Below, piece by piece: positions 15,551-18,700 of a DNA stretch of 64,000 nucleotides; the first letter of the stretch is position 1; every line of letters starts with the position of its first letter. Source of the DNA: Lampris incognitus. Lineage: Eukaryota > Chordata > Actinopteri > Lampriformes > Lampridae. The stretch is from assembly GCF_029633865.1 (NCBI RefSeq), contig NC_079213.1, forward strand, positions 95,825,320 to 95,889,319. The letters are read 5' to 3'. The notes under the pieces are model-generated. The model was not told the origin of the DNA and did no database searches. It worked only from the letters and a program-made list of their open reading frames with translations. The translations under genes were made by a program, and so were the position numbers.

Positions 15551-15601
15551 TGTGTGTGTGTGTGTGTGTGTGTGTGTGTGTGTGTGTGTGTGTGTGTGTG
15601 T
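15551..15601 (+). repeat. (TG)n tract upstream of cbarp first coding exon
   Basis: About 25 TG units ending 26 bp before the candidate splice acceptor junction of the first coding exon. In RNA this is a UG repeat, the known binding target of TDP-43. Confidence 0.95.
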
Positions 15602-15652
15602 ATCTATACGTGCATGTTATCTCCCAGGGGGACCCTCTTGCTGGCGTGGACC

Positions 15653-15700
15653 ATGAGCAATGAGTCTACCGTCTGGAACATTCTACCAGAAAACTCCACA
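15653..15700 (+). CDS. cbarp: cbarp first coding exon (16 codons, extracellular N-terminus)
   Basis: The ATG at 15653 has A at -3 and encodes [16 protein letters not shown], followed by the strong donor gtaagt. The phase (0) fits the next exon, and the two sequons NES and NST suit a glycosylated extracellular tip. A possible acceptor (ctcccag) ends at 15627, so the exon may carry 25 nt of 5' UTR, with further non-coding exons upstream not identified. Long (TG)n tracts end 26 bp before the acceptor junction and begin 40 bp after the donor. The assignment rests on frame, donor and topology, because N-termini of this family are poorly conserved. Confidence 0.68.
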
Positions 15701-18700
15701 GTAAGTCTGCCTGTCACCACTGTCCTGCACTCAAACTTCCTGTGTGTGTGTGTGTGTGTGTGTGTGTGTGTGTGTGTGTGTGTGTGTGTGTGAGTCCACT
15801 CCAGCTCATGACCAACAGAATTGTGCTCTCTTTCGTCTTCTCTCCTGACCCAGTGACTAGTTAATAGAGAACATCCTGGTCTGGGCCTGAAATAATTCAA
15901 TCTATGATCTAATCTCATCCTTAATTTCCCCCCTCAGAACTCGCAATCTGACGTCAGAGTACAGCCCTCATCAACACTTATCGCGAATTCACTTGGCAGA
16001 GTGTATGTAAATGGAAACACTCGTTACATACAAGTACATCTCTTCTATAGGGTAGAGTAGAACGCCGTTGTATTTATGGCTATTTTATGGCCTCGGTCTC
16101 TGATATCAACACTCAGCGACAGGGCCCAGAGAGCTTGTCTGCACTGCCACACACACACACACACACACACACACACACACACACACACACACACACACAC
16201 ACACACACACGAGTCGCTATCGGTGTTTTTATCTTTTCAATTTTAAGCCTGTTGAATGCAGAGCCGCCTTTATGGAGTCATAACAGCATGCGTGTTCAGA
16301 GAAGTGTGTTTTGAGAAAAAACATGGATAGCCATTTTGGATACATAATCTGGGTTGTGGTCTTAACCAGGAGTTCGGTATAACACCTTTCGTGTAATTGC
16401 AGTAGCTGTGCTTTTACGGTTATCCTCTTCCGACACGCTTTGTTCACCAGACCTTTTGCTGGGATAACCGGATGTTATCTACATATTTCACACTATTCTT
16501 TTGTAAGTACATGATACATGGCTGTTTGATAGTGGAACAACTGATTAGGGTATGATATGATTGTCATTTGATGGTTGAGGCAATTCAGTGTGTGTTTCTG
16601 CAATGCTGTGCATGTGTACATTAGTCGGTAGCAGCTTGTTCCTGCAGTTCTGATCTTATGGACTTGATATTCTGTCTCTTAAGTCAGCACGAGTGCACAT
16701 GCTTGATGAAACAGGAGCGTTTGGACAGCAAATGAGATTATAAAAGGGTGTGGCGGTTTGTCGTGACATCAACATGAACAAGTCAAGTCAATTTTATTTG
16801 TATAGCCCAATAACACAAATTACAGATTTACCTCAGTGGGCTTTTATAGGAACACAACATCCTGTCCTTCGATCCTCACACTGGATAAGGAACAACTCCC
16901 TAGGAAAAAAAAAACCTTTAACAGGGAGAAAGAATAGGAAGAAACCTCAGGGAGAGCAACAGAGGAGGGATCTCTCTCCTCTTCTAAGACGGACAACGTG
17001 CAATGGATGTTGTTTTTACACAATTTACAGAAAACAATATTGAAAGAGGATAACAGCCCAGGACCTGAGCATACACTGCAGAAGAGATAAGATAAGAAAA
17101 AAAAACACATTAGAGAAGCATATAACATTGAAACAGAATAACAAAATTATATGGATTTATAAGATATATAAAATGAAAATGTGATGAAGAGGATGCCAAG
17201 CAGTGTCCGGGTTGTGAACACCGTCACCATGGCGACCTGGAAGGAGGAAAGACACCAGTGCACGTGCACACCAGGGAGACTCACATCACACCACTCATTT
17301 CCACAGAAAAAGAGAAAGGGGAAGACATCATTCAGAGAGAGAGAGAGAAAAAAAGACATGTGAGAGAAGAGAACAGTTTGCAATAGCCAATGTATATGCT
17401 ATAATATCACTGGCAGAACATCCATCCATCCATCCATCCATCCATTATCCGAACCACTTATCCTGCTCTCAGGGTCATGGGGATGCTGGAGCCTATCCCA
17501 GCAGTCATTGGGTGGCAGGCGGGGAGACACCCTGGACAGGCCATCACACACTCACACACACACACACACACACACACACACACACACACACACACACACA
17601 CACACACACACACACACACACACACACACACACACACACACACACACACACACACACACACACACACACACATTCATACCTAGGGGCAATTTAGTATGGC
17701 TGATTCACCTGACTTACATGTCTTTGGACTATGGGAGGAAACCAGAACACCCAGAGGAAACCCATGCAGACACGGGGAGAACATGCAAACTCCACACAGA
17801 GGACGAACCGGGACAACCCCCAAGGCTGGACTACCCCGGGGCTCGAACACAGAACCTTCTTGCTGTGAGGCGACTGGGCTAACCCCTGTACCACCGTGCC
17901 GCCACTGGCAGAACAGTGCTTGGTAAATTCATTGAGACAGAAACCGGCCCGCCATGCAGTACAGGTTGTGAAGCCCTCAACTTAAAGGCAACTAATTGCA
18001 GGCTAAGGCAAAAAGATGTGTTTTAAGTTTGGATTTAAAGGACTCTGATTCTGACTCGAACAGACTCTGATTGTCTGATGGCAGCAGGCAGGTTATTCTA
18101 CAAGAACAGGGCCCGATAGGAAAAGGCCCTGCCACCAGCTGACTTCTTTTTAACTTTGGGTACACACAGGAGCCCTGTAGTTTGAGAGCGAAGAGCTCAA
18201 GATGGACTGTACGGTTTAAGGAGATCAGACAGGTATGATGGGGCCAGCCCATTAAAGATTTTTTCCCTCCCTTTTTTCCCCAATTGTATCTGGCCAATTA
18301 CCCCATTCTTCTGAGCCATCCGGGTCACTGCTCCACCCCCTCTGCCAATCCGGAGAGGGCTGCAGACTACCACATGCTTCCTCCGATACATGTGGAGTCA
18401 CCAGCCGCTTCTTTTCACTTGACAGTGAGGAGTTTTGCCAGCTCATGGAAGGATCCCCCCTTGAACAGGCACCCTGACTGACCAGAGGAGGTGCTTGTGC
18501 AGCGACCAGGACACATACCCACATCCGGTTTCCCACCCGCAGACATGGCCAATTGTGTCTGTAGGGACGCCCGACTAAGCCGGAGGTAACACAGGGATTC
18601 AAACCGGCAATCCTCGTGTTGGTAGGCAACAGAATAGACTGCTACGCCACCCGGACACCCCATTTAGAATTTTATAAGTCATCAGGAGCACCTTGAACAA

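Follow-up and report, generated by a model that had tools for sequence, protein, structure and literature searches.

Does an exon that carries the start codon of a gene depend, for its inclusion in mRNA, on two long TG repeats between which it lies? The question arises at exon 1 of cbarp in a 64,000-nt stretch of the Lampris incognitus genome (hereafter the window), where the initial annotation proposed that UG repeats beside a weak acceptor bind TDP-43 and cause skipping, so that repeat length might tune expression of the gene. The mammalian relative of cbarp restrains neuronal calcium channels. On balance, we think it rather probable that exon 1 is an ordinary internal exon, shared by two cbarp copies and mostly included in the transcript, and that the TG tracts are microsatellites with at most a modest effect.

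The start-codon exon and its gene

Nine coding exons, their limits placed manually on the basis of reading frame and splice signals, join into a single 902-aa frame in our open-frame gene model of the window (Table 1). We take the gene to be cbarp, both from its apparent similarity to the vertebrate protein and from its head-to-head ATP-synthase neighbor, an arrangement like that of mammalian CBARP and ATP5F1D. The neighboring minus-strand frame at 9639–10001 matches Pfam ATP-synt_DE_N (E 1.7e-9), and a minus-strand frame at 11533–11742, likewise head-to-head with cbarp, presumably encodes part of the ATP synthase delta chain. The last cbarp exon had no match in Pfam and no relative of it was confirmed in the viral_contigs or genome_contigs collections, while exon 2 matched just TMEM154 in Pfam at 0.15, which we disregarded. 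Among the papers on cbarp that were listed, no title concerned splicing of the fish gene.

Perfect (TG)25 and (TG)26 tracts bracket the start-codon exon as first annotated, and at the distances first given: 26–27 nt separate the upstream tract from the exon, whose acceptor AG ends at 15627, and 40 nt separate the donor (ACA/GTAAGT after 15700) from the downstream tract. The exon had been described as 48 nt long, a figure that holds for its coding part; the whole exon (15628–15700) measures 73 nt. It begins with the letters GGGGA, and from the ATG at 15653 it encodes 16 residues in which we read two potential N-glycosylation sequons.

Table 1. Positions of cbarp exons, repeat tracts and related features (window coordinates unless a contig is named)
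Feature	Position	Strand	Remarks
Likely cbarp promoter block (CACGTGG, GGTGGGTGTGTC, TTTCATTCATAAATAC)	12840–12960	+	Core 12894–12937 matches the C17 copy; start site putative
Likely noncoding exon 0	12961–13034	+	Start approximate; donor TAG/GTGAGT after 13034
Further (TG)41 tract	14864–14945	+	Intron 0
Hypothetical alternative exon	15492–15527	+	ATG 15495 in frame with exon 2
Upstream UG tract, perfect (TG)25	15551–15600	+	Intron 0; extra T at 15601
cbarp exon 1	15628–15700	+	73 nt: 5′ leader 25 nt, coding part 48 nt; end phase 0
Downstream UG tract, perfect (TG)26	15741–15792	+	Intron 1, 40 nt past donor
(CA)31 tract	16148–16209	+	Intron 1; pairing with either UG tract possible by folding
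(CA)60 tract	17553–17672	+	Intron 1; pairing with UG tracts possible by folding
cbarp exon 2, transmembrane segment	21939–22090	+	Gene model; partner of exon 0 if exon 1 is skipped
cbarp coding exons 1–5	15653–15700, 21939–22090, 25171–25232, 26466–26628, 27216–27387	+	Frames and splice sites
cbarp coding exons 6–9	27842–27994, 28531–28771, 29472–29661, 32637–34164	+	Frames and splice sites
Second cbarp copy	C17:38834021–38857999 (L028, L029, L030)		C17 is 51.8 Mb
Tracts of the C17 copy	Upstream of exon 1, CA28 (at about 1.3 kb) and AC12 (at about 0.6 kb); GT22 315 nt after exon 2

A second copy of the gene on contig C17

Of eight candidates in a protein search of the 1.48-Gb genome with the last cbarp exon, two were matches: the gene itself and another copy on contig C17, with 57% identity across residues 47–401 of 508. 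In the adjoining C17 DNA, tblastn matched exons 2 (E 2.8e-6), 3, 4, 5, 7, 8 and 9, with no clear match for exon 6. The C17 counterpart of exon 1 has 72 nt, of which 24 are leader and 48, MSNDLPMLTSLTENST, are coding, ends in a donor of the same phase, and sits between a promoter-like block with its donor and the transmembrane exon. Both copies share the context GTGGACC/CTGGACC ahead of ATGAGCAATGA (blastn E 0.004, 67 nt), and upstream of exon 1 they share, in collinear position, the core of the promoter block at 12894–12937 (blastn E 3.6e-4). Among the blastn matches listed between the two copies, promoter block and exon 1 rank sixth and seventh; the five with higher scores are one TG-repeat match and four that are transposon-like or repeats. 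Promoter block and exon 1 are each weak matches alone, yet they are collinear.

In both copies the shared block is followed by TAG/GTGAGT, 140 nt from the start of the block in the window and 125 nt in C17, which indicates a noncoding exon 0; in the window this is the top-scoring donor within 11700–15627. The CpG profile is of little help alone, with no sharp island and CpG raised over about 11.2–13.7 kb. Since promoter block, donor and exon 1 are collinear in both copies, exon 1 is very likely an internal, second exon in each and the upstream tract intronic. The earlier description of the exon as both first coding and internal is thus borne out, acceptor and upstream block with donor alike being matched in the C17 copy. 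We judged it unlikely that exon 1 is instead the transcription-start exon, with the upstream tract in its promoter, because the C17 copy has an exon with an acceptor and a promoter-like block and donor 2.6–3 kb upstream. When the flank 15120–15550 was searched as DNA against its own genome, five matches came back, one being the flank and the others four stretches of about 50 bases; for the most part, then, it is no known repeat in this genome.

The repeats themselves do not accompany the exon. Within 0.5 kb of C17 exon 1 there is no perfect TG or CA tract of at least 8 units; the 20 kb of pieces L029 and L030 hold three such tracts, none flanking exon 1 (Table 1), and piece L028 holds none. 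The C17 acceptor is preceded by a C/T-rich stretch, (CT)10 begins 30 nt past the donor, near where the window copy has (TG)26, and an interrupted TG-rich stretch lies 6.4 kb past exon 1. A simple repeat therefore follows the exon 1 donor in both copies, (TG)26 in the window and (CT)10 in C17, and the flanks are simple sequence in both, but different in kind. As C17 exon 1 has no TG counterpart beside it, the TG tracts are not an element common to the two copies, and the comparison gives no sign that they have been kept. With two copies only, a gain of TG in one cannot be told from its loss or replacement in the other.

Repeat density, splice sites and the cost of skipping

The repeat load of the window is the genome's own, with 8 tracts of at least 15 units in 64 kb compared with 24 in spot samples that total 200 kb (20 pieces of 10 kb each, taken at fixed intervals on contigs C1–C3 and containing 408 N bases). 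In a survey of 14 fish genomes, AC was generally the most numerous dinucleotide repeat, and more of the dinucleotide repeats lay in introns than in intergenic DNA (PMC8186053, as excerpted). Among the nine cbarp exons, exon 1 alone has on either side, no farther than 300 nt away, a perfect tract of at least 6 units. Exon 6 is the only other with such a tract at most 100 nt from the acceptor, a (TG)6 at 27818–27829 that ends 12 nt before the exon. With the nine exons as targets, circular shifts of the window's eight tracts of at least 15 units produced flanking as close in 1 of 64,000 cases, the unshifted one (301 of 64,000 at a 100-nt limit), and independent placement did so in 21 of 200,000 (246 of 200,000 at that limit). 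A 73-nt pseudo-exon was flanked as closely at 2/192,000 positions of the spot samples, both belonging to one pair in opposite orientation (TG then CA), and had TG on both sides at 0/192,000. The genome has some 200,000 exons; very roughly, about two so flanked would be expected genome-wide, and fewer with TG on both sides, from a base rate that rests on that single TG-CA pair. Rarity on this scale (1/64,000, 21/200,000 and, for TG on both sides, 0/192,000) counts against neutral microsatellites, for a double flanking that was singled out after the fact.

That the acceptor is unusually weak, as the initial annotation implied, is not clearly borne out by our scores. Under approximate splice and branch matrices, it scores 3.12, sixth of nine in the gene, and the donor 2.98, fourth of eight, with 2.88 and 2.66, respectively, in the C17 copy. 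On these approximate scores, which lie within the range of the gene, weakness would not distinguish the site. It does have fewer pyrimidines in the 26 bases up to −5 (fraction 0.62, versus 0.88 in C17) and may for that reason depend on whatever binds the UG tract. For a branch site and the pyrimidine tract, (TG)25 leaves 26–27 nt ahead of the exon. The top branch candidate within 40 nt is A15606 (2.64), at a distance of 22 nt from the exon and about 5 nt from (TG)25, and if it is used, proteins on (TG)25 would abut the branch site. Within 150 nt the best candidate is A15517 (4.96), 111 nt from the exon and beyond the tract.

The start codon would indeed be lost on skipping, as had been proposed. 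When exon 0, with its start assumed at 12951, is joined to exon 2, the first long in-frame ATG is in exon 3, beyond the transmembrane segment, and four other ATGs precede it. Of these four, two start short frames of 5 and 7 codons; the other two are out of frame (80 and 75 codons) and overlap the long frame, which would retain 823 of 902 residues. The product would be soluble or, more likely, poorly made. Since start codon and transmembrane segment would both go, strong skipping should be selected against.

TDP-43, RNA pairing and other readings

Exon 1 resembles several known systems in part. CFTR exon 9 (HGVS exon 10, with its (TG)mTn) is likewise an internal exon with a UG repeat immediately ahead of its acceptor; its loss disables the CFTR protein, as loss of exon 1 would disable cbarp. 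The cbarp exon differs in its 25 units, compared with TG11 to TG13 at CFTR in the accounts consulted, in having no T run, in a second UG tract past the donor, and in a branch candidate between tract and acceptor; skipping, demonstrated at CFTR, is hypothetical here. TDP-43-repressed cryptic exons go with long UG repeats close by (PMC11163724, as excerpted), as does exon 1, where (TG)25 provides the long UG repeat by the acceptor that is looked for in TDP-43-regulated exons. We nevertheless rejected exon 1 as a cryptic exon of this class, which PMC11416411 describes as non-conserved, whereas exon 1 is the start-codon exon in two copies and is matched in C17. In humans there are about 20,000 pUG tracts of at least 12 repeats, enriched near splice sites; UG repeats of at least 12 can form pUG folds (left-handed UG quadruplexes), and RNAs with at least 24 can form double folds, according to the excerpted text of PMC12276007. 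Judged by repeat length alone, both cbarp tracts, at 25 and 26 units, exceed the 12 repeats required. TDP-43 binding and the pUG fold are described as mutually exclusive (preprint PMC12697283 and PMC12276007, both in part).

These sources make a TDP-43 mechanism plausible, without singling out exon 1. TDP-43 on UG25 and UG26, as the two tracts may be called in RNA, would hinder the branch site and U2AF before the exon and U1 after it, so that some transcripts would join exon 0 to exon 2 and longer tracts would yield less full-length cbarp. A gene for TDP-43 is expected in any vertebrate genome. Both tracts exceed in length the (TG)12T5 that TDP-43 occupies as the main inhibitor of CFTR exon 9, alongside hnRNP A1 at a GGGGAAU exon element (PMC12171016, with PMC7911278 as a further source, both in part), and single-stranded (GU)12 takes up a first copy of the RNA-binding part of TDP-43 with a KD of at most 5 pM (preprint PMC12697283, as excerpted). 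The proximity of A15606 to the tract also fits, as do a lone AG at 15531–15532 between 15509 and 15625 and, weakly, the five letters GGGGA, which resemble the CFTR silencer. Yet the UG motifs of constitutive exons that an excess of TDP-43 causes to be skipped are shorter than the repeats by cryptic exons, which are long (PMC11163724, in part), and the acceptor scores no lower than others of the gene. We regard tuned skipping of this kind as unlikely. UG repeats near 5′ splice sites, moreover, reportedly have unpredictable effects, to go by the title of Passoni 2012. Less likely again is that a shared, obligatory start-codon exon has drifted into a UG-flanked setting like that of cryptic exons, where TDP-43 level, tract length and CA pairing together set the amount of membrane-bound cbarp; calcium-channel damping would then vary among individuals with the length of their tracts.

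Pairing with the CA tracts of intron 1 could act in two ways, by a UG26-CA31 duplex that shelters UG26 and keeps the exon open, or by a UG25-CA duplex that loops the exon and favors skipping or a back-spliced circle. Six minimum-energy folds were run, five of them including a downstream CA tract, and among these five UG26 pairs with CA in four and UG25 in three. Both tracts share CA31 in the fold of 15500–16260 and both pair with CA60 in that of 15400–17750, while in 14800–17750 UG26 takes CA31 and UG25 and UG41 take CA60. Tying up UG25 in 15500–16260 costs about 31 kcal/mol, UG26 about 29 and both about 118, an excess which implies that either tract can substitute for the other on CA31. In the fold of 15500–15900, which holds no CA tract, 43 of the 50 bases of UG25 and 24 of the 52 of UG26 are unpaired. 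Such predicted pairing might shield the tracts from TDP-43 or, in the case of UG25, enclose the exon in a loop. Fold programs, however, pair complementary repeats automatically, and the result depends on reach: with pair span limited to 600 nt, UG26-CA31 and UG41-CA12 (at 15090) form but UG25 has no CA partner, and with 300 nt only UG41-CA12 remains, neither UG25 nor UG26 pairing with CA. The CA tracts would also be transcribed later than the UG tracts, giving proteins a head start, and C17 exon 1 has no such tracts adjoining. Control by either duplex, the two taken jointly, therefore seems improbable to us. More remote still is a swap rather than a loss of the N-terminus, through use of 15492–15527 as an exon or 5′ extension. 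Its acceptor at 15492 scores 7.78, the highest in 11700–15640 and within the top 0.2% of AG sites in the window, and joined straight to exon 2 it would give an in-frame start, MSSNRNLYFLC, in a frame that stays open through exon 2. One frame in three fits by chance, though, the donor scores a modest 1.21, and no counterpart was recognized among the matches listed in the alignment with the C17 copy; we consider this reading very improbable.

What favors neutral microsatellites beside an ordinary exon is the match of exon 1 in a C17 copy without TG tracts, together with ordinary repeat density and ordinary splice scores; that this comparison involves one paralog, whose own flanks are simple CT sequence, weakens it. 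On the microsatellite reading, exon 1 would predate the separation of the two cbarp copies. Transcription would begin near 12.95 kb, a noncoding exon 0 would end at 13034, and exon 1 would supply the start codon. The TG tracts would have grown beside the exon in the window copy, or been lost or replaced in the other. Their UG repeats in the pre-mRNA would be long enough for TDP-43 binding or for pairing with the downstream CA tracts, but the exon would mostly be included and the effect of the tracts would be modest at most. Full inclusion would make the locus a natural counter-example, in which two long UG tracts within 40 nt do not suffice to repress a real exon. If skipping were instead proportional to tract length, the exon would be a natural, individually variable TDP-43 reporter in a calcium-channel regulator gene. 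For either outcome the C17 copy, with no TG tracts beside its exon, is a built-in control.

Several further features of the locus were noted. Use of the acceptor at 15492 with the exon 1 donor would give a 53-codon upstream frame running through the TG tract to a TGA at 15654, overlapping the main ATG (ATGA); tract length would thus shift this upstream frame. Complementary AC and GT repeats within one fish intron, as in cbarp intron 1, resemble the AC/GT bridged introns described in fish and lamprey (Lin et al. 2016, via the reviews PMC7404189 and PMC9198270), in which the repeats stand at opposite intron ends. We rejected cbarp as such a case on geometry, there being no complementary tracts at opposite ends. 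Intron 1 (15701–21938) has UG26 at its 5′ end, but its CA tracts lie in its first third, more than 4.2 kb from the acceptor, the last ending at 17672, and from there to the acceptor no perfect tract of at least 6 units occurs; intron 0 (13035–15627), with UG25 at its 3′ end, has no perfect CA/AC tract of at least 6 units before 15090. Elsewhere in the window, frames at 6389–7476, 45244–45810 and 54638–55642 are presumably Tc1/mariner-type transposases, the first two nearly alike by eye over their shared part. An UnaL2 LINE 3′ element (Rfam) lies on the minus strand at 56644–56697, on the downstream side of minus-strand frames at 57058–59567 that we take to be reverse-transcriptase-like.
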